DNA from: a virus
IMG/VR virus record: IMGVR_UViG_3300044673_000097
Location: 21,380 to 85,379 of that record
Strand: one strand, 5' to 3'
DNA length: 64,000 nt
Below are positions 2,531 to 59,628 of this stretch, piece by piece. The position numbers and the translations under genes were made by a program. Position 1 is the stretch's first letter, and every line of letters begins with the position of its first letter. The notes beneath the pieces were generated by a model, which saw only the letters and a program-made list of their open reading frames with translations, had not been told where the DNA came from and searched no databases.

Positions 2531-4171
2531 TCAGCCCTTCTTCGTGAATCCGTTGAGGAGAATCAGCTTCGTCGTGGCGACGTTCTCGCGGACATTCGTC
2601 GTGCCCGTGCTCGCGGTGAGCGCCGAGCGGAACGCATCTGAAACACCGGCCACGCCGTATCGGGTCGTCAGATATCCGCCTGGGTACACGGACGCATGGA
2701 CGTTGCCCGTGCGCGAGACGTGCTGCCCGAATGCCCACACGAGCACCTCGTGATACCGCACGGCGCTCTCGAAGTCGGTGGGCTGCCCGGCAAGCAACGT
2801 CGTCAGCGTGGTGTCCACGGATGCGTGGAATGACGTGGGCGCGCCCGAGTCGTGCATCCGATTGCCCACGTGATCGCGGAACACGGACCACAATTCCTGC
2901 ACCGCCGAGACGTAGGAATCGCGGTCGGACGGGTACGCGATGACGTATTGCGAATGGGCATCGCCCGTGATCGCGTGGTAGTCGATGCCCGTGTCGGCGT
3001 TCTGAAGCGAACGGTGCGTGCCGTATCGCAGCTTCATGTTGTTCATGCGCGCGACGGCGGTCGCCTCGCTGGTCGCCTTCGGGTACGTGACCGAGTCCAG
3101 CCGGTTCTCTCCCGGCGCGTAGTGGATTCCAGCCAGTCCCGCCGCGCCATACGTGCGCCCGATGTGCCCGTCGAAGACGCGCCACAGGAGATTGGTGCGA
3201 GCAATGCGGTCGGCCAGCGTCGCCCCGCCCGCGAGGTCTGCCACGCCTGCCATGTCGGCCGCGACGAACGGGTCGGCACCGCCGTGTAGCACGCCGCCGG
3301 GGTCGCCAACGGTCTTCGCGGCGTGCCCGACGATTGCGTCGCGCAGGTCGTTCAGCAGGGTCACCTGTGAGGCTGCATTGCCCGCGGCGGCATCGGGTGA
3401 AACGACGGTGTTCGTGTTGTCCACCGCCGCATGTACCGCGAGCGGGTACTCGATCACGATGTGCTCGTTGATCTGCGCGATCAAGTGCACGAGGTCGAGC
3501 AGGATATTCGACGAGCCGATCTCGTCCCAATCGATGATCAGCGAGGTTTCGCCATACGCCGCGTCACCGTATCGGTGGTAGTCGTCGCCCCAGCCGCCCA
3601 TGTCTTGCACGGCCTGCGCTACGGTGGCGGCCATTGCCGCCGACTTCGCCGCGTCGCTGCTCGCCGTCGTGTCGAGCACGGGGCAGCGGGACGCGTCGGC
3701 GAATCGGGTCACGACGCCCCATGTCGTCGGCGCCGTCTGGTAGTTCCAGTCGGCGTGCGTGCACAGGCGCATCACCACGTCGTCTGGTTCGATTCCGATG
3801 CGACGTTGGAGCGAATCCCCGACCACGACGGAACACGTCGCCGTGCTCCATGGCGTGATCTCGATCGTCCCGGCTGCGGAACCAGCGTGCGCTGGGCTCG
3901 CGTCCCCTAGGTCGTTGCTGAATCGCGGCGGGATGTTCGTCTCGGATTCCTCGACGAGCTGCACATCGTAGACGCCGCCGACATCGGGCGTGATCTGGTT
4001 GTTGGGCAGCCAATTCTCGGCGCCCGCATCCCAGATCGGCAGCGCGGATCCCGGCGGCGCGGACAGCAATCGACACCTGACGCGCGTGCCTTCGTCGAAG
4101 GTCGCGGTGATGGTGACCGTCTCGCCAGCGAATGGGAATCGCAGGTCGCGGCTGATGGAGTTGATGGTCAT
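2531..4171 (-). CDS. Structural protein of unknown fold, probable fibre or fibre-attachment subunit
   Basis: This 546-residue product has no signal peptide or membrane segment. The first 90 residues are beta-strand-like and contain Pro and Gly turns. Later sections repeat a theme of His and Tyr residues, with GDAHSQYV at about residue 400, reminiscent of the DDHxQY motif that recurs in tail fibres. The gene lies between the baseplate genes and the WHNGTSW fibre and shares their close spacing (3 bases to each neighbour). The family is not recognised; a fibre or fibre-connector role is inferred from position and composition. Confidence 0.5.
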   Translation of the reverse strand: MTINSISRDLRFPFAGETVTITATFDEGTRVRCRLLSAPPGSALPIWDAGAENWLPNNQITPDVGGVYDVQLVEESETNIPPRFSNDLGDASPAHAGSAAGTIEITPWSTATCSVVVGDSLQRRIGIEPDDVVMRLCTHADWNYQTAPTTWGVVTRFADASRCPVLDTTASSDAAKSAAMAATVAQAVQDMGGWGDDYHRYGDAAYGETSLIIDWDEIGSSNILLDLVHLIAQINEHIVIEYPLAVHAAVDNTNTVVSPDAAAGNAASQVTLLNDLRDAIVGHAAKTVGDPGGVLHGGADPFVAADMAGVADLAGGATLADRIARTNLLWRVFDGHIGRTYGAAGLAGIHYAPGENRLDSVTYPKATSEATAVARMNNMKLRYGTHRSLQNADTGIDYHAITGDAHSQYVIAYPSDRDSYVSAVQELWSVFRDHVGNRMHDSGAPTSFHASVDTTLTTLLAGQPTDFESAVRYHEVLVWAFGQHVSRTGNVHASVYPGGYLTTRYGVAGVSDAFRSALTASTGTTNVRENVATTKLILLNGFTKKG

Positions 4172-19921: not shown

Positions 19922-20370
19922 CAGAACGGCCCGTGCTCGATGTCGTCGAGGATGAATCGATCACCGACCGCGGGGGCGTAGGTTGTGCCGCCCACGGCCG
20001 CAGCGGTGGGTGCGGTCGAGCTGCCCATGCTGCGCTCGCCGCTCTTGAGCTCGCGGAGCATCTTCTGGGCGCGGTCGTAGCGCTTCTGCTCGGGGTTATC
20101 GGAGCTTTGCGGGCGTCGGAATTCCGGCTTGCGCTCATAGCCGTAGAAGATCGCGAGGTCGACGCAGCACCGCTTGACGACACGCGGGATCGATCCCGTC
20201 ATCGGCACCGTGTACCCGGGGCCGAGGATGGTATTCACGTCCGCCTCGGCGTCGGCGATCGCTTCGGTCACGAGCGCCGCGCTGATTCCGCCGCCGCCGT
20301 CGGAGAACAATTGCGCCAGAAGCGAATTGCCCACCGCGCTCACGAGGTCGGACTGGACGATGTAGGCCAC
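19921..20370 (-). CDS. Mu gp36-like (DUF1320) head-tail connector protein
   Basis: The 149-residue product MAYIVQSDLVSAVGNSLLAQ continues as a bundle of helices with EAIADAEADVNTILGPGY and VPRVVKRCCVDLAIFYGYER, the DUF1320 pattern ('Y.t..dl....g...l..l.d......d...i..ai.dA...id.yl..rY..P......l...c.dia.y.L'). In Mu-like phages this is gp36, a head-tail adaptor. It lies between the major capsid and tail completion genes. Confidence 0.8.
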   Translation of the reverse strand: MAYIVQSDLVSAVGNSLLAQLFSDGGGGISAALVTEAIADAEADVNTILGPGYTVPMTGSIPRVVKRCCVDLAIFYGYERKPEFRRPQSSDNPEQKRYDRAQKMLRELKSGERSMGSSTAPTAAAVGGTTYAPAVGDRFILDDIEHGPF

Positions 20371-27763: not shown

Positions 27764-28127
27764 CGGGGCCGCTCACTTCCTGTTTCGTCGGGGCGTCGAG
27801 CCCGAGCAACTTCGCTCGTCGCTCCATGATCTTCAGGGCCGTCTCGATCTTGCGCGCATCGCCCTTGTCGATGTCTTCGCGCATCGCGACGAGCATGCCG
27901 TCGAGCCGCTCCAATTCGATCTGGCGCAACTCGGCAGCCTTCTCGGCGGATTCCGCTTGCAGCTTCGCGAGTTCATCGGACACGAGCTTGTAGGCCCATC
28001 CGACACTGCAGCCCATCTCGGCGGCGATGTCCCGATACGACAGCCCCTTGACCCGAAGCGCGAATGCCCGCGTGGTCTGCTCTGCAACGGTGCAGGCATT
28101 CGGGGTAGTGGCGTTTTTGTCGGGCAT
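27648..28127 (-). CDS. Small terminase-like DNA-binding protein
   Basis: The 159-residue protein carries an N-terminal helix-turn-helix (GLSYRDIAAEMGCSVGWAYK, residues 28-47) followed by a long coiled coil (LQAESAEKAAELRQIELERL) and a Gly/Pro-rich C-terminus. This is the layout of small terminases that recognise pac/cos. It overlaps the start of the large terminase. A palindrome (CGCCGT-CT-ACGGCG) lies a few bases upstream of the ATG. The DNA site it would bind is unknown. Confidence 0.75.
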   Translation of the reverse strand: MPDKNATTPNACTVAEQTTRAFALRVKGLSYRDIAAEMGCSVGWAYKLVSDELAKLQAESAEKAAELRQIELERLDGMLVAMREDIDKGDARKIETALKIMERRAKLLGLDAPTKQEVSGPDGGAIPIEDARSMLAERIAALAGKPDGEPAGGDSGEPA

Positions 28128-29603: not shown

Positions 29604-29780
29604 CTTGCCACCTCCCCGGATCCCGTCCGGAGTTTTCGCTTGCCTTCCCGCTTTCGGTCGGGCACGCTTTCTGTGGCAGCGGGGGACGCTGCGGATTGTC
29701 GAGGGCCACTCTTGGCGGGGTGGCCTTCTCGCTATTTCGTCATCCTATTCCACCCGGCGGCAATCGCCTTGTCAGTCATC
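29604..29780 (-). other. Non-coding stretch downstream of the CRISPR-like array
   Basis: This 177-base stretch lies between the last repeat and the start of the 215-residue regulator-like gene. It contains a CCCG-8-CGGG inverted repeat (about 29648-29663). No protein-like frame is visible, and I see no clear promoter for the downstream gene. Confidence 0.4.
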
Positions 29781-29953
29781 CTGCATCCAATCCAAGGCCG
29801 CGCATTGCAGCGACACCGCGCGGGAGTCAATCCGCCTGAGGCTCGCACTGCATCCCATAACCTTCCCACCGTGCATTGCAGCATCGACCCAGCGACCTGC
29901 GCAGCGGCGTCTCGTTCCTGCACCCCATGGCGCTCCCGCACACGCATTGCTGC
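29781..29953 (-). CRISPR. CRISPR-like mini-array: three imperfect repeats, two spacers (71-bp pitch)
   Basis: On the minus strand three units start GCWGCAATGC and end in ...GGRTGCAG: DR1 29953-29918 (36 nt), DR2 29882-29848 (35 nt), DR3 29811-29781 (31 nt). They are separated by unrelated sequences of 35 and 36 nt, and unit starts are exactly 71 bases apart. DR1 and DR2 share ATGGGRTGCAG at the 3' end. Each has terminal inverted words (CTGCA/TGCAG), the layout of type V-F repeats (GTTGCA...ATGCAAC). The repeats are diverged, and 71 is not a multiple of 3, so they are not coding repeats. The array is downstream of the Cas12f-like gene and on its strand. Confidence 0.6.
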
Positions 29954-29959
29954 GGGTGT

Positions 29960-30140
29960 CGTAGGACGCACGCGGTTCCAATGCGTTGCGAGATGGTCTG
30001 CGAGCGGTACTGATCCGCGACCCGTTGCCGGACCGCTTGGCTGTGGACCGCTCGCGGGTTGGCGAGCCAAACGCCTTTGGGCATTGCAGTATGCCCACGA
30101 TGCCCCGCCAGACGAACAGATTGTGCAGGGCTTCGTCATC
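29960..30140 (-). ncRNA. tracrRNA-like region beside the array (candidate)
   Basis: On the minus strand GGGCAT-ACTGCA-ATGCCC (30096-30079) is a perfect 6-bp hairpin whose 6-base loop is complementary to the TGCAGT at the 3' end of DR2. Type V-F tracrRNAs (for example the Un1Cas12f1 one) have the same design, a GC-rich hairpin with a UUGCAU loop that pairs with the AUGCAA end of the repeat. Further small inverted repeats (TTGG-CTCG-CCAA) follow before the first repeat. RNA boundaries are unknown. Confidence 0.45.
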
Positions 30141-30144
30141 GAAT

Positions 30145-30729
30145 TCACGCCGCAGGCTTGTGGAGCAATCCGTTGAGACGCTCGATCTCCGCCTTGAGTT
30201 CCCCGTTCTCCCTCTCGAGTTCCTTGACCCTCTCCTTGAGCCTTTCGACCTCCGATTGCTCCCGCGCTTCCTTGCGCACGGCCTTGACTTCCTGGCACGG
30301 CTTGCGCGCTTCGGGCGCAACGTCGCGTACGATCTGGCGGACCTTCGGCAATCCAGGCGAGCACCCTTCCTTGTCGATGTGGTGCTTGATTGCGGCGACC
30401 AGTTCCGCCTTGCGGGCGGGAGTCGATACCACAGCGGGATGAATCATCGCATGCGCCGCATCGGGGCCGACCAACTTCGCCACCTCGATTCCGTATTCGT
30501 CGATCTGCCTGCACACGTGGTTGTACTGGTGCAGACCGATCACGTTCGGAAACTCGCGCGTCAGGAATGCTGAGAACGTGGCGTGCTGCCCGAGCTTCCA
30601 CGTGCCCTCTTCCTCGATTGCCCGGAGCTGCACAAACACGTCAACGCCTGCGCTGTGCCACGTTGCCAGCAGCCCACGGACGCGATCGACAATCCCCTTG
30701 TACGCTCGCTCGTCGCTCTTCTTGCTCAT
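30145..30729 (-). CDS. Helical DNA-binding-like protein with C-terminal coiled coil, partner of the Cas12f-like gene
   Basis: The 194-residue protein starts MSKKSDERAYKGIVDRVRGL at an ATG that overlaps the Cas12f-like stop (ATGA). Residues 35-75 (GTWKLGQHATFSAFLTREF then IGLHQYNHVCRQIDEYG) resemble the helical 'lG..tFe.y......s...ay..i....' modules of ParB/HTH-like proteins. Residues 150-190 are a leucine-zipper-like coiled coil (VERLKERVKELERENGELKA). Translational coupling to the effector makes a joint function likely. I do not recognise the family. Confidence 0.6.
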   Translation of the reverse strand: MSKKSDERAYKGIVDRVRGLLATWHSAGVDVFVQLRAIEEEGTWKLGQHATFSAFLTREFPNVIGLHQYNHVCRQIDEYGIEVAKLVGPDAAHAMIHPAVVSTPARKAELVAAIKHHIDKEGCSPGLPKVRQIVRDVAPEARKPCQEVKAVRKEAREQSEVERLKERVKELERENGELKAEIERLNGLLHKPAA

Positions 30730-32231
30730 TGCACGACCTCCTGTTGCGGCGCCGTGAGCGCCTTGGTAACCCGGCCCTTCGTCTTCGCCTTGACCTTCTC
30801 TGCCACCTTGCCCGTGACCCCAGCGTGCCCCGCCTTCGCGAGCGCGTTGACGCATGCAACGATGTCGCGGTGTGCCTGGTGCTCGCACTTCTGGCACTTG
30901 AACCGCTTGACCACTTCGGAGCGCGTGAACCGTCGCCCGTGGTATTCGATCACCTCGACCCGCTGCGTGGCATCGAACAGATTTCCGGGGTCGGCATACC
31001 CGCACGCTGGGCACGTCTGCGAATCATACGCGACGTTCTTGATCTCGACTCGAACGCCGCGCTGCTTGCCCTCCCGATCGACGGCTTGCGCGAGTTCGTA
31101 GAACGGGAAGCTGTGAATCATGCGCCGCACTTCCTCGTGCGCCTCTCCTCCGGTCTTGCGCTCGAATCCTTCGCGCGAGTCCGTCATGTCCGGCCACAGC
31201 AGCAGCCCGACATTGTGAGCAAGGCACCACGCGATTGCGCCCGCCGCAATCTGTCGGATGCGCGTAGTCACGAACCGGGACTCCGCGTCCTCGAGATTCG
31301 TCACCGGGCGCATTCGGCGTTTGACCCCGTGGCCCTTGGACCCGCTGCCCATCGTGTTGATGCACCGCTGGATTGATGCGCGACGGTGCGCGAATCGTTG
31401 CCTCGCGACCACGATGTCTTCGCCGGACACGTTGTGCTCGAAGCCGTCCGCTGTGACGATCTGGACGAACCTCGACACGCCGATGTGCGCAGCGGCCACG
31501 CCCGTGGAGGTCACTTCTGCGACAGGCTCGCCAGACCATGAGATGAGGGCGAACCACTTTCGGCGGTTCTCGTCGTAGGAGATTCCCACGCGCCCGAGTT
31601 TCACCTCGCCCGAGACGAGCTTGCGCCACATTGCCTCGCCGTTCTTTCCGCACGGCGCGACGATGACGCGCGTGGCCTTCTTGCCTGCGCCCAACAGCGG
31701 GACGGTGAGCACGGCACGCGACGGCGGCCCCTCGACTTCGCATGAACGCGAGCGGGCGTAGAATGCGGCGGACGCGTGCCACGACGGGAACGATGCCCGG
31801 TTCGCGAGCAGGTCTTTCAGGTGCTCACCCGTGAACCGGGAGGCAATGTTGTCCATCGTCTCGGCCGTCCAGTATTCGGTCACGTGGACGAAAGCATCTT
31901 CCGGCATCGGGCGCGATTGGCGCTTCGGCTTCTCCCGCTCGGATTGCTCACGAGCAAGCGCCGTCGCCATCTCGTCATTCCACATGCGCTGCAACACCGG
32001 GCCGATCTTCCCGGTGAAGGCGTACTTTGCGGAGTTCCTGTCGTCGGCGCGTCGCTTGAACGCGTCGAGCATCGCCACGGCTTCGGGATACAGCTCACGC
32101 ATGGCCCGATTGAGCGCGGGACCGAGCGTCATGCGCATGGCACGAAGGCGAGGACCAACGTCATCCCACGACGCAAGCTCGGGCTTGACGATTTCGACCT
32201 TCAGCGTTCCGGCTAGCGTCTTGGATTCCAA
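30726..32231 (-). CDS. Cas12f-like (type V-F/TnpB family) effector, predicted nuclease-dead
   Basis: The 501-residue protein starts at a TTG with GGAGGTG six bases upstream. Its N-terminus, KVEIVKPELASWDDVG then LR...ALNRA (residues 11-43), parallels that of Cas12f (EIVKP...W..FG..LR...ALNKA). LVSGEVKLGRVGISYDENRR and KWFALISW (205-232) match the Cas12f WED/bridge region. The zinc finger CPAC (407-410) and CQKC (446-449) is intact. The RuvC triad is broken: RuvC-I has AAAHIGV (His249 for Asp) and RuvC-II has LLLWPDM (Pro347 for Glu); RuvC-III HRDIVAC keeps Asp456. Dead relatives (TldR, dCas12f) act as RNA-guided DNA binders, so target repression or activation rather than cutting is expected. 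Confidence 0.8.
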   Translation of the reverse strand: MESKTLAGTLKVEIVKPELASWDDVGPRLRAMRMTLGPALNRAMRELYPEAVAMLDAFKRRADDRNSAKYAFTGKIGPVLQRMWNDEMATALAREQSEREKPKRQSRPMPEDAFVHVTEYWTAETMDNIASRFTGEHLKDLLANRASFPSWHASAAFYARSRSCEVEGPPSRAVLTVPLLGAGKKATRVIVAPCGKNGEAMWRKLVSGEVKLGRVGISYDENRRKWFALISWSGEPVAEVTSTGVAAAHIGVSRFVQIVTADGFEHNVSGEDIVVARQRFAHRRASIQRCINTMGSGSKGHGVKRRMRPVTNLEDAESRFVTTRIRQIAAGAIAWCLAHNVGLLLWPDMTDSREGFERKTGGEAHEEVRRMIHSFPFYELAQAVDREGKQRGVRVEIKNVAYDSQTCPACGYADPGNLFDATQRVEVIEYHGRRFTRSEVVKRFKCQKCEHQAHRDIVACVNALAKAGHAGVTGKVAEKVKAKTKGRVTKALTAPQQEVVQ

Positions 32232-32236
32232 CTGTC

Positions 32237-32486
32237 ACCTCCAATGCTCACGCTTCGATCCTCGATCGCGAGGTCAAGGCCTGTCGTTTCCATTTCATTC
32301 TCCTGCCCTGCAATCGATGACGCTTCGATCCGCGATCGCGAGTCGAAGGGCGCGAACGTGCACGCCACGGCATATCCCCTGCAATCGATGGCGCAACGAT
32401 CCTCGATCGTCACCGTCGTGGAGACGGTTTGCGGCGCCGCGTTTCCAGTGCCTGCACCCGTTCACGCTCCAACCTTTTCGCAATCG
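32237..32486 (-). CRISPR. Second CRISPR-like repeat set immediately upstream of the Cas12f-like gene
   Basis: Four imperfect repeats read on the minus strand: a degenerate one ending at 32451, then 32413-32378, 32342-32307 and 32272-32237. Their 3' ends are spaced 73, 71 and 70 bases apart, with unrelated intervals of 34-37 nt. The middle two agree at 28 of 32 bases and contain a CGATC-N3-GATCG hairpin followed by GCGYCATCGATTGCAGG. DR1 of the downstream array ends GCGCCATGGGGTGCAGG, 13 of 17 identical to this, so both sets belong to one family. The last unit overlaps the SD of the Cas12f-like gene, and the first overlaps the end of the 102-residue gene. Confidence 0.5.
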
Positions 32487-32770
32487 TGGATCGAAACGCA
32501 ATCGTTGGCGAGGACGATGCCTCGCCTTTGCGCCTTGCAGCAGGCGCTCTCGAAAACATCCGACTGGGCATCCTCTCCCACACGCGCAAGGATGCGTTCG
32601 CATTCCGAACTGTCAACGTGCAGCGCTGTCGATTCAGCAGATTGTTCCACTTGACAATCCCCACACCCCTCAAACTCCTGCCGCTCCGGCACCCACACCC
32701 GGCCAGTGCCGCCGCATGGGCAAGGCGGCTTGTACCGGCCCAGCGCTTCGAGCTGTGCGCGGGAGGTCAT
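32462..32770 (-). CDS. Zinc-ribbon protein (CPCGGTG type)
   Basis: The 102-residue product begins MTSRAQLEALGRYKPPCPCG at an ATG overlapping the previous stop (ATGA). CPCGGTGRVW and CGDC at residues 17-42 form a Cys4 ribbon of the DnaJ-like 'CxCxGtG' type. The C-terminal half is helical. It is the first gene of a run of small overlapping genes. Its 3' end overlaps a repeat of the upstream CRISPR-like set. Confidence 0.6.
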   Translation of the reverse strand: MTSRAQLEALGRYKPPCPCGGTGRVWVPERQEFEGCGDCQVEQSAESTALHVDSSECERILARVGEDAQSDVFESACCKAQRRGIVLANDCVSIHDCEKVGA

Positions 32771-40435: not shown

Positions 40436-41444
40436 CGAAACCTCCAGCCCAGAACGGGTCGGTCGTGCTGGCCTTTCGGCCGGTTGCCGCCACGAGCAGT
40501 TCGTCGATCCGCTCGGCGGTGATCTCGACGAGTTCCTCGCCGGGCGGGTCGGGCTCGGGTTCGGGTTCGGGAATCCAATGCCCCGGCTCGTCGTCGGGCA
40601 ATGCCGGCGGTGAATCGACAAGCGCGATCGCCTTGTCGATGTGCTCGGCGTCCCTGAACACAAGGTCGACACCGACGTAGCGCTTGCCGTTCGTGCGAGG
40701 GTCTCTCCCCATGCGCCAGTCGTCGAGCAGGGTCCCGTCAACGGCCAGCCGCAACTCCTCGACGGAGTAGGTCTTGAGAGCGCGAGCGATGACGGCCCGG
40801 CGCTTGTCGTCGAGCTTGGCCTTGGGCGCTAGGTGCGCGCGCCAGTAGTCGAACACGAGCTCGACGGGCGACGGCTGGGCGGGCTTGCTCGCCACGGGCA
40901 GCGGCAAGGGCAGGTCGGCAGGCGTGACCTGCCTTCGACCCGATGACGGGGCCGCAGTCGAGTTGTCGCAACTCGACAGATCAATGGTCGGGGTCGGAGG
41001 TCCAGATCGGAGGTCGGAGGTCAGGCGCGAGGGTCTCGGCCAATCCCCGAGAGTCTCGCGAGGGTCTCGCGAGGGTCTCGCGAGGGTTTGCGTTTCTGGT
41101 TCTTTTTCGGCTAGTTCCGGGCCAGGGACTCGGGGCTTGGACGGGTGATCGATCCTCTGGTGCTTGTCCCAACCTCGGACGTGCCCGTATGGTTGGGAGG
41201 ACACCCGATAAAGGGTCACCAGACCCACGTCCGAGAGTCTCGCGAGGATCTCGCGAGGGTCTCGCGAGGGTGTCGCACACCAGAATACCTGCCCAAGAAG
41301 CCACGTCGGGTTCGCCCGAAAGTTGCCGTGGTCGTCGGCGAGCAGGAGCAGCCCGACGAACAGCCGGAACTCGTCATCCTTGAGCGATGCCGTCTTTTCG
41401 TCTTCGAGCAGCTCGGGCTTGATGGTCCGAATGCGTCCGCTCAT
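40428..41444 (-). CDS. Phage replication initiator (O/DnaD-like), containing DNA iterons
   Basis: The 338-residue protein has a winged-helix N-terminus: GRIRTIKPELLEDEKTASLK, then FRLFVGLLLLADDHGNFRAN and ILARLSDVGLVTLYRV. This is the usual start of phage replication proteins 'rirtikPeff.de..a..s...rll~igLw~~aD..G'. The centre is Pro/Ser/Arg-rich, and the C-terminal half has a conserved-looking helix FDYWRAHLAPKAKLDDKRRA. Two clusters of an 11-bp repeat lie inside the coding sequence (41029-41091 and 41233-41276), as origin iterons do in lambda O. Confidence 0.7.
   Translation of the reverse strand: MSGRIRTIKPELLEDEKTASLKDDEFRLFVGLLLLADDHGNFRANPTWLLGQVFWCATPSRDPREILARLSDVGLVTLYRVSSQPYGHVRGWDKHQRIDHPSKPRVPGPELAEKEPETQTLARPSRDPRETLGDWPRPSRLTSDLRSGPPTPTIDLSSCDNSTAAPSSGRRQVTPADLPLPLPVASKPAQPSPVELVFDYWRAHLAPKAKLDDKRRAVIARALKTYSVEELRLAVDGTLLDDWRMGRDPRTNGKRYVGVDLVFRDAEHIDKAIALVDSPPALPDDEPGHWIPEPEPEPDPPGEELVEITAERIDELLVAATGRKASTTDPFWAGGFDD
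41029..41276. repeat. Two clusters of GAGGGTCTCGC 11-mer iterons inside the initiator gene (candidate origin)
   Basis: Four tandem 11-mers occupy 41049-41091 (gagagtctcgc, two exact gagggtctcgc, gagggtttgc) with an isolated copy at 41029. Four more lie at 41233-41276 (gagagtctcgc, gaggatctcgc, gagggtctcgc, gagggtgtcgc). The unit contains the palindrome CTCGCGAG. Eleven is not a multiple of three, so the repeats are conserved as DNA and not as peptide. Iterons within a replication initiator gene usually mark the origin. Confidence 0.65.
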
Positions 41445-56828: not shown

Positions 56829-57334
56829 ACGAGCAGGAAGTCTGGCTATCGGCTCGGAGCGCAGTGCTCCAGGCGATGATGACGACCGGGGGTTGGACCC
56901 CAGAGCACGCCCGGAGGGTGTGCAATCAGAAGGCTGACGAGGCGCTGGAGGACTTCCGTGAAAGATTCCCGCCCGCCGATCCCGGCCCCCGCGTCCCGTA
57001 TGAGGGCTGGTGCCAATTGGAGGCGATGGGGCACGAGTCGCATATCGGCTGGGTTCGTGACCTGCGCGAGACCCCAGCCAAGCTGGTCGAACTCGAGGTG
57101 CTGAAGGCCGACGGCACTCGGGGGCAGCGCAAGCGCTATGGCGCCGGGGCCATCTACTGTCTCACCGAGATCGACGAGGAATCCGCGCAGCACCTGGCGC
57201 GAGATGAAAGCAAGAACGTCTGCGCCGAGTGCAACAAGGCGTTCTGGAGTCGGCATTGGGCGCGCCTGTGCACGGAGTGCGAGTCGAAGCACGAGGCGAG
57301 CGAGGAGTGCCGGGAAGACGAGGGCATCTTCTGA
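56825..57334 (+). CDS. 169-aa protein with C-terminal zinc pair
   Basis: MNEQEVWLSARSAVLQAMMT overlaps the previous stop (ATGA). The globular middle is followed by VCAECNKAFWSRHWARLCTE then CESKHE, a Cys4 ribbon near residue 135. Precedes the cytosine methyltransferase by overlap. Unrecognised. Confidence 0.55.
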   Translation: MNEQEVWLSARSAVLQAMMTTGGWTPEHARRVCNQKADEALEDFRERFPPADPGPRVPYEGWCQLEAMGHESHIGWVRDLRETPAKLVELEVLKADGTRGQRKRYGAGAIYCLTEIDEESAQHLARDESKNVCAECNKAFWSRHWARLCTECESKHEASEECREDEGIF

Positions 57335-59628
57335 TGCGCCCGCCCGTCCTCCGCCTGTCGCTCGACGAGCTCGTCGTGGATTCCTTCGCCGGCGGGGGCG
57401 GGGCGTCCACGGGCATCGAGGCCGCGATTGGCAGGCCCGTCGATATCGCGATCAATCACAGCGCTGCAGCGATCGAGATGCACCGGCGCAATCACCCGGC
57501 CACGAAGCACTACCAGGAGGACGTGTGGCGGGTCGACCCTCGCGAGTCGTGCGGCGGGAGGCCTGTCGGATTGGCCTGGTTCAGCCCGGACTGCACCCAT
57601 TTCTCCAGGGCGAAGGGCACGCAGCCGGTACGCAAGACCATCCGCGGACTCGCCTGGGTCGTCATCCGCTGGGCCGAGGCCGTCCGCCCGCGCGTCATCA
57701 TGTTGGAGAACGTGGAGGAGTTCTGCTTCCCAGGGGACACCACGGTTCTCACCAAGCGCGGCATCGTTCCCATCGCGGACGTGCGTGTCGGCGATGAGGC
57801 GTGGACCCATAACGCCAGGTGGAAGCCGGTGACCGCCGTGGCCACGAGGAAAGCCGCGACCGTGCGCCTCAAGGGGTACGGAAACTCCATTGTGGAGACG
57901 ACTCCCAACCATCAGTTCTACGCGCGCGAGTACGCACCGAAGATCACCAAGAGTGGGAAGTTTGGTCGGCATGAACCACGGCTGCTGGAGCCGCATTGGG
58001 TGCGCGCAGATGAATTGGCCGACGTGGATGCTGCGTCCACGTACAGCGCCAACTACTCCGGCTTTGCTTGGGCGACCCCGATCGAACTGCCTCGATATTG
58101 GATGCGATTGCCGGCCGCTGTTGGGGTGGACGTAGAAGCCCCTGCGTTCTTCTACATGCTCGGTCGCTGGGTGGGTGACGGATGGATCCGGAAACGAAAG
58201 GACCGGCAGAACCTCGTTCGTATCTGCGAGGAATCCGGTTCGAAGGCTGACCTTCTAGAGGAGCGGCTCGCTGAAACAGGGCTGACGTGGCACAGGTCTC
58301 GCCACACGGAGAGCGTTGACGTGTTCGACCTGTCCGCCGAGCAGTCTCGACGCCTCCTCACGTGGCTGACCCGTCACTTCGGGCAATATGCGCACAAGAA
58401 GACGATCCCGGCCTGGCTATTCGGAGCATCGGACGCTCAACGAGAAGCCTTCATCGCCGGCTATGTCGATGCAGACGGCCATCAGCAAAGCGAGGGGCGC
58501 TGCGCCGTGGTCAGCGTGTCGCGGTGTCTGGCGGTAGGCGTTCGGCTGCTCCTGCATTCTCTTGGGCGCCTCGCAAGCATCAGCAGTATTCCAGCGCGCT
58601 CCGCCGCCAGCGTTTCTGGAGAACGCCAGATGCAGTGTCGTCAAGCGTACACCGTATCGTGGAGAAAAGGCGGCGAGCCCGACAAGGCGCACCTTTCGGA
58701 GCTTCACGCATGGGGGCGCGTGCGGGAGGTGTCTCCAGGCCGAGATTGCGTCGATGTTTTCGACATTACAGTGGCCGACGATCACAGCTTCATTGCAGAT
58801 GGTCAGGTTGTGCACAACTGCACATGGGGGCCTGTTGTCGACGGCAGGCCGGATCCCACCCGCGCCGGCAAGACGTTTCGGGCATGGTCGCGCAAGCTTC
58901 GGTCGCTCGGCTATGACGTGGAGTTCCGCACGCTCGTCGCTGCGGACTACGGCACGCCCACCACGCGACGCCGGCTGTTCATGGTCGCACGATGCGATGG
59001 GCAGGCAATCCAGTGGCCCGAGGCGACGCATGGGCGAGGGACCGGGCGGGCGTGGGTCCCGGCATCGGAGATCATTGATTGGAGTCTTCCAGCGCAGAGT
59101 GTCTACAATCGCCCGCGCCCGCTCGCTGCGGCGACCATGGCTCGGGTCGAAGAGGGAATCCGCCGGCACGTGGTGGAAGCGTTGCGGCCGATGGTGCGCC
59201 AGACCGAGCTCGGGTTCGAGGCGCCCATCATCACGAAGCATTACGGCGGCGTCATCGGACACCCGCTCGACCGCCCGCTGGGCACCGTGACGGGTCAGGA
59301 TCACCACGCGCTGACGACGGCCTTTCTGATCAAATACTATGGCACCGGCTCGACGCAGGGCGTAGACGGGCCATTGCACACCGTCACTTCGAAGGCTCGC
59401 TTTGGGCTGGTGCAAGTGTACGGGGAGCCGTACCGGATTGCCGATGCGACTATGCGGATGCTGGCGCCGTCCGAACTCTTCGCGGCGCAAGGATTCCCGC
59501 GTGGCTACCAGATGACCGGGACCAAGACGCAGCAGATCTCGCTCGCGGGGAACAGCGTTTGCCCTCAGGTCGCCGAAGCGATCGTGCGCGCCAACGTCGT
59601 CGAGAATGAGCAGAGGAGGACCGCATGA
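57334..59628 (+). CDS. C5-cytosine DNA methyltransferase interrupted by an intein
   Basis: The 764-residue product has an extein of 399 residues. It includes VDSFAGGGGASTGIEAAIG (motif I), the catalytic WFSPDCTHFSRAKG (Cys87) and LENVEEF at motif VI, with the C-terminal RPRPLAAATMARVEEGIRRH and QGFPRGYQMTGTKTQQISLA motifs. The reading is interrupted after ENVEEF (residue 130) by a 365-residue intein and resumes at Cys496. It probably modifies the phage or host genome against restriction. The ATG overlaps the previous stop (TGATG). Confidence 0.9.
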   Translation: MRPPVLRLSLDELVVDSFAGGGGASTGIEAAIGRPVDIAINHSAAAIEMHRRNHPATKHYQEDVWRVDPRESCGGRPVGLAWFSPDCTHFSRAKGTQPVRKTIRGLAWVVIRWAEAVRPRVIMLENVEEFCFPGDTTVLTKRGIVPIADVRVGDEAWTHNARWKPVTAVATRKAATVRLKGYGNSIVETTPNHQFYAREYAPKITKSGKFGRHEPRLLEPHWVRADELADVDAASTYSANYSGFAWATPIELPRYWMRLPAAVGVDVEAPAFFYMLGRWVGDGWIRKRKDRQNLVRICEESGSKADLLEERLAETGLTWHRSRHTESVDVFDLSAEQSRRLLTWLTRHFGQYAHKKTIPAWLFGASDAQREAFIAGYVDADGHQQSEGRCAVVSVSRCLAVGVRLLLHSLGRLASISSIPARSAASVSGERQMQCRQAYTVSWRKGGEPDKAHLSELHAWGRVREVSPGRDCVDVFDITVADDHSFIADGQVVHNCTWGPVVDGRPDPTRAGKTFRAWSRKLRSLGYDVEFRTLVAADYGTPTTRRRLFMVARCDGQAIQWPEATHGRGTGRAWVPASEIIDWSLPAQSVYNRPRPLAAATMARVEEGIRRHVVEALRPMVRQTELGFEAPIITKHYGGVIGHPLDRPLGTVTGQDHHALTTAFLIKYYGTGSTQGVDGPLHTVTSKARFGLVQVYGEPYRIADATMRMLAPSELFAAQGFPRGYQMTGTKTQQISLAGNSVCPQVAEAIVRANVVENEQRRTA
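57724..58818 (+). mobile_element. Intein with LAGLIDADG homing endonuclease domain
   Basis: The 365-residue insertion starts CFPGDTTVLTKRGIVPIADV (block A, Cys1), has block B TTPNHQFY, the endonuclease motifs LGRWVGDGW (about residue 276 of the precursor) and AGYVDADG (375), and ends VFDITVADDHSFIADGQVVH then N with Cys +1. All splicing residues (Cys1, block B His, penultimate His, Asn, Cys+1) appear present, so splicing is expected. It is placed in the conserved ENV motif of a methyltransferase. Confidence 0.9.

Follow-up and report, generated by a model that had tools for sequence, protein, structure and literature searches.

What does a phage gain from a clustered regularly interspaced short palindromic repeats (CRISPR) effector that appears unable to cut? 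The question is raised by a locus on the minus strand of a 64,000-nucleotide stretch of viral DNA (the window), which represents bases 21380–85379 of the 85,379-base IMG/VR virus record IMGVR_UViG_3300044673_000097, classed as linear. The locus encodes a Cas12f-like effector and a small partner protein, flanked by a putative guide-RNA scaffold and two sets of CRISPR-like repeats. The original prediction, made from the sequence of the window alone, described it as a phage-borne locus derived from type V-F, comprising a Cas12f that had been inactivated, guides of its own and a translationally coupled partner; this description is supported by relatives in which the inactivation, the partner and the layout recur. 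In our opinion, the locus is likely to specify a Cas12f-derived effector that has lost cutting, has kept guide-RNA and DNA binding, and silences its targets with the assistance of the partner. The same kind of system occurs in three other viruses, all four carriers being only distantly related to one another, which suggests gene silencing by occupancy of DNA, not by its destruction.

The effector

The effector gene (30726–32231, minus strand) begins with a TTG codon behind a strong ribosome site, GGAGGTG, and encodes a protein of 501 amino acids (aa; P0001). Profile, alignment and fold agree on its affinity. The PADLOC Cas12f model matches residues 9–417 (E 3.7e-34), the zinc-binding TNB domain (Pfam, Cas12f1-like) is found at 5.5e-12, above the Pfam cut-off, and comparison with the sequences of AsCas12f1 structures gives 4.6e-16. 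The top Foldseek match of the AlphaFold2 model (mean predicted local distance difference test score, pLDDT, 77) is AsCas12f1 (8dzj; E 2.9e-24, template modelling score 0.75 by target length); the model also matches a nuclease-deactivated Cas12f (9n9c; E 4.9e-15) and Cas12m. In the profile and structure comparisons proposed with the original prediction, the best matches are thus to Cas12f and stand above the TnpB models.

In the alignment, His249 occupies the position of the RuvC-I Asp and Pro347 that of the RuvC-II Glu, while the RuvC-III Asp456 and the zinc-finger cysteines are retained. The Asp/Glu/Asp triad of active type V-F nucleases is therefore represented by H249-P347-D456, the first two of which had been read from the sequence before. 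The protein of 501 aa is related to Cas12f and, as judged by its residues, is catalytically dead.

Relatives and the shared catalytic loss

A tblastn search of phages identified an effector homologue in the virus Rctr197k (26.7% identity), annotated as transposase-like and adjoining an annotated CRISPR array. Scans of IMG/VR added two homologues, in contigs L006 (42%, E 2e-125) and L087 (36%, E 1e-99); further scans for viral members returned the same two contigs and no more, and two scans of GTDB genome contigs returned no relative, the short patterns used there being liable to miss divergent kin.

The RuvC-I Asp is replaced in all four effectors, by His in the window and Rctr197k and by Asn in L006 and L087. 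The triads of the three relatives are accordingly N-E-D (L006 and L087) and H-E-D (Rctr197k), and the RuvC-II Glu is lost in the window only. Among 84 Cas12f/TnpB-like proteins from phage and plasmid loci, a set in which two fragments do not reach the position and to which L087, found afterwards, does not belong, the RuvC-I Asp is missing only in the window, L006 and Rctr197k. In a maximum-likelihood tree of 41 proteins, the four dead effectors form one clade (support 100/99) beside active phage Cas12f proteins; the simplest reading is therefore that the inactivation is ancient and was inherited. The effector frames remain open across the four phages despite 26–43% identity and 44–65% GC, and the zinc-finger cysteines are retained, so that by sequence the catalytic loss looks fixed and not a matter of decay. 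An artefact of assembly or decay was rejected, because intact relatives exist.

Putative guide-RNA scaffold and repeats

The putative guide-RNA scaffold, resembling a trans-activating CRISPR RNA (tracrRNA), lies between the partner gene and the downstream array (29954–30144, minus strand) and is recognized by hairpins in its predicted fold and by a conserved element within it. The tracrRNA-like hairpin of the original prediction, GGGCAT-ACTGCA-ATGCCC (30079–30096, minus strand), is evident in both sequence and fold. The conserved element is the 9-nt ACCGCTCGC (30000–30008, minus strand), which in each of the four family loci stands exactly 46 nt ahead of repeat 1. As this 9-mer occurs in these genomes once per about 34,000–170,000 positions, the coincidence is not due to chance. 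The element is complementary to GCGAGCGGT just upstream of it in the window and L087, and the pairing is poorer in L006 and Rctr197k.

All repeats of the window are on the minus strand. The downstream set consists of GCAGCAATGCGTGTGCGGGAGCGCCATGGGGTGCAGGA (repeat 1, 29916–29953), GCTGCAATGCACGGTGGGAAGGTTATGGGATGCAGTG (repeat 2, 29846–29882) and GCTGCAATGCGCGGCCTTGGATTGGATGCAGGA (repeat 3, 29779–29811), separated by spacers 1 (29883–29915) and 2 (29812–29845). The upstream set comprises repeat 1 (32377–32410), repeat 2, CTCGCGATCGCGGATCGAAGCGTCATCGATTGCAGGG (32306–32342), and repeat 3 (32236–32270), the end of which overlaps the ribosome site of the effector gene; spacers 1 and 2 of this set occupy 32343–32376 and 32271–32305. 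The upstream repeats greatly exceed chance expectation: the best pair of 33-nt segments at a spacing of 64–78 nt is identical at 29 of 33 positions, against a shuffle mean of 17, a value equalled in none of 500 shuffles, and the triple was reached in none of 200. Taken alone, the downstream repeats are weaker (pairs reached in 11–14 of 500 shuffles, the triple in 0 of 200), but they are backed by the position of repeat 1, which begins at the same distance from ACCGCTCGC as in the three other phages. The two sets of repeats at a pitch of about 71 bp that had been predicted are thus both present, and the spacer coordinates given with them prove correct within a few bases. A possible diverged second copy of the scaffold precedes the upstream array (32414–32545, minus strand). 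Its score of 88 is reached in none of 300 shuffles; yet stretches drawn at random from the actual sequence of the window score up to 90, for which reason its support is only modest.

A CRISPR array adjoins the effector gene in all four loci. In L006 it has 12 repeats, each 36 nt long and all identical save for a single mismatch in one of them, at a pitch of about 71 nt, and contains about 11 different spacers; L087 has three repeats, which flank the partner gene, and Rctr197k has four. The sole exact match of any spacer lies in the genome of L006 itself (G002), where a second mini-array at 27957–28064 consists of a degenerate repeat, a spacer and a perfect repeat. This spacer is identical to number 10 of the main array; translated, it would give a CPHC zinc-binding motif, and it is found just downstream of an open reading frame for a CPHC zinc protein. 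A solitary repeat, lengthened by one inserted base, is found at 20336 of the same genome (minus strand); it immediately precedes an AAGGAGG that resembles a ribosome site and an ATG, as might a stand-alone guide or an element of a leader.

It should be noted that small arrays of 65–75 nt pitch also accompany many phage-borne Cas12f genes with intact catalytic residues (L003, L004, L009–L023), which are named only as transposases where the records are annotated. In L004, a Brevibacillus plasmid, a guide-RNA/array unit stands on each side of such a cas12f gene (2078–2289 and 3900–4111), scaffold and repeat being duplicated at 92%; in L003, an Alicyclobacillus phage, the Cas12f locus, also with intact catalytic residues, has two guide-RNA/array units (1390–1868) with weaker duplication.

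The partner protein

The partner gene (30145–30729, minus strand) encodes 194 aa, and its start overlaps the effector stop codon as ATGA. Its model is confidently helical throughout (pLDDT 86) and ends in a coiled coil of about 44 residues; by sequence, this 44-residue C-terminal helix resembles leucine zippers. The overlap and the model thus bear out the translationally coupled coiled-coil partner that had been proposed. Homologues adjoin the effector gene in L006 (34%, E 7.5e-37), where the ATGA overlap recurs, and in L087 (E 8.7e-38); an IMG/VR pattern scan with the partner returned these two contigs only. No family or structure matched the N-terminal part, and the fold as a whole had no structural match despite the confident model. 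The nuclease-deactivated Cas12f of PDB 9n9c presumably acts with a sigma factor; in the window partner, no sigma-like domain was found in Pfam or PHROGs.

The carrier phage

The window encodes a terminase, a Mu-type portal, a head protease/major head protein and a tail sheath, which identify a contractile-tailed phage. A tyrosine integrase (G000:2732–3232, E 4e-16) supports the temperate life that the original prediction ascribed to it. No Rfam family matched within the window. Elsewhere in the window, an open reading frame of 799 aa (57229–59628) matches DNA methyltransferases in its N- and C-terminal parts and other families in the middle, and is possibly split by an insertion; two short arrays (41048–41087 and 41232–41276) share the 11-nt unit CGAGGGTCTCG.

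Possible functions

According to the mechanism that we favor, the locus would produce a tracrRNA-like scaffold and CRISPR RNAs from its short arrays, both of which are recognizable in the sequence. The dead Cas12f would load these guides and bind matching DNA without cleavage, and the bound effector might keep genes of the host, or of phages and plasmids that compete with the carrier, from being transcribed. The partner, which is helical, has a leucine-zipper-like tail and is found only with a dead effector, may serve as a second subunit and make the block stronger or more extensive. We infer RNA-guided binding without cutting, and silencing, because Cas12m (PMC11013384) and phage TldR (PMC13418256) behave in this way.

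Several observations weigh against this mechanism. The repeats of the window are degenerate, a search for an anti-repeat by duplex energy found no pairing better than that of shuffled repeats, no promoter was found on the strand of the operon, and no recognizable partner was found in Rctr197k. Moreover, the spacer comparison proposed with the original prediction, run against phages, plasmids and the carriers' own genomes, gave no convincing target, only low-complexity or weak matches apart from the second array copy in L006; all four spacers of the window are without a match in phages or plasmids.

As to what would be silenced, we give about equal weight to rival elements and to host genes, each of these being a possibility that falls short of even chances. 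The first would amount to immunity by binding, with guides aimed at rival phages or plasmids and a block of superinfection like that by Cas12m in place of host regulation. Cas12m acts so with identical changes at RuvC-I, other phages are among the known targets of phage spacers (PMC7162821), and the diversity of the L006 spacers is in keeping with such a role. The failure of any spacer to match a phage or plasmid speaks against it but weighs little, since these habitats are barely represented in public phage records; nor were acquisition genes seen in the vicinity of the locus, which also counts against immunity. The second possibility is that the guides silence chosen host genes, as TldR does with flagellin and as proposed for dCas14 and glycyl-tRNA synthetase, two precedents from phages (PMC13418256, PMC7162821). 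The window phage and L087 have integrases and may thus reside long in the host. No target was found, however, and the L006 array of a dozen guides exceeds the few-target control described for TldR.

It is rather unlikely that the complex serves to regulate itself, by binding repeats in its own mRNA leaders and so limiting expression. Repeats do occur just before the effector gene in the window, the partner gene in L087 and a phage gene in Rctr197k, and the lone repeat of L006 precedes a ribosome-site-like sequence; but arrays located within operons would yield leader repeats by chance, and in L006 no repeat precedes either the effector or the partner gene. Still less probable is that the locus is the degenerating, now functionless relic of a formerly active V-F system: the degenerate repeats of the window and the loss of RuvC-II besides RuvC-I would fit, whereas open frames, an intact zinc finger, a conserved coupled partner and a conserved scaffold element across four very divergent phages, as well as the 12 near-perfect repeats of L006, would not. 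The reading of the effector gene as a transposon TnpB mistaken for Cas12f, prompted by the transposase annotation of homologues in phage records and by the PHROGs name of the effector itself, can be dismissed as highly improbable, since the NCBIfam TnpB model reaches only 76 bits (cut-off 100) and is outscored by the Cas12f models, arrays stand beside the gene in all four loci, and the best folds are those of Cas12f.

Returning to silencing by a dead Cas12f, one may tentatively go further and envisage a two-protein RNA-guided complex in which the effector works only with its own coiled-coil subunit, aims short arrays at genes of the host or of rivals, and curbs itself by way of leader repeats. 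This extended version is, in our view, doubtful.

Comparison with known systems

The original prediction considered a phage-carried dead Cas12f with its own guides and partner to be undescribed. In the open-access papers searched, no description of the clade, the partner or the guide-RNA signature was found, and to this extent the statement stands; the passages covered of the Rctr197k paper (PMC5099504) count three transposases in that genome and do not mention the CRISPR locus. A phage-carried dead Cas12f is nevertheless not new as an idea, because a possible "dCas14" was noted in 2020: a huge-phage Cas14 that lacks a single catalytic residue and is accompanied by a spacer directed at the host glycyl-tRNA synthetase (PMC7162821). 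Phage-encoded TldR, moreover, is an established RNA-guided repressor (PMC13418256).

The dCas14 is likewise a phage-borne Cas12f/Cas14 without a catalytic residue, with a CRISPR array and proposed repression, but it is a single case to which one sentence of the main text is devoted, with no mention of a partner or guide-RNA element; compared by description only, it may or may not belong to the present clade. That remark now becomes a testable family of four phages, marked by a single fixed loss of catalysis, by a partner private to the family and by a signature in the guide RNA. AsCas12f1 (type V-F; PDB 8dzj/8j12) shares with the effector the WED/RuvC/TNB fold and sequence, small size, and an array with upstream scaffold on one strand; unlike it, the clade lacks the RuvC-I Asp in all four members, the window also lacks the RuvC-II Glu, and three of the four have a dedicated partner. 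The nuclease-deactivated Cas12f of PDB 9n9c/9n9m, solved with guide RNA, matches the effector fold but has a shorter chain (365 aa) and is more distant from the effector than is AsCas12f1.

TldR is also phage-encoded, nuclease-dead and of the TnpB/Cas12f superfamily (PMC13418256). It differs in its derivation from TnpB, in its dedicated guide RNA and in the flagellin or csrA gene next to it, and no CRISPR array is mentioned in the text of that paper; the window effector has the dead phage-borne RuvC, but Cas12f models fit it better and arrays are present. Cas12m (type V-M; PMC11013384, PMC10442227) shares CRISPR arrays and natural H-D-D and N-D-D RuvC sites, with which it binds double-stranded DNA without cutting and protects against phage. 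It belongs, however, to another family by profile and fold rank (no Cas12m-named PADLOC model matched the effector, and Cas12m structures rank below Cas12f), is bacterial and larger (about 600 aa), and has no such partner reported; the inactivation in the clade is probably independent of that in Cas12m. If silencing is true, the effector together with its partner would be a small DNA-binding pair that is non-cutting by nature, and phages would have independently made a natural CRISPR interference from Cas12f, in a parallel with Cas12m and TldR that extends to the same Asp-to-His or Asp-to-Asn changes.
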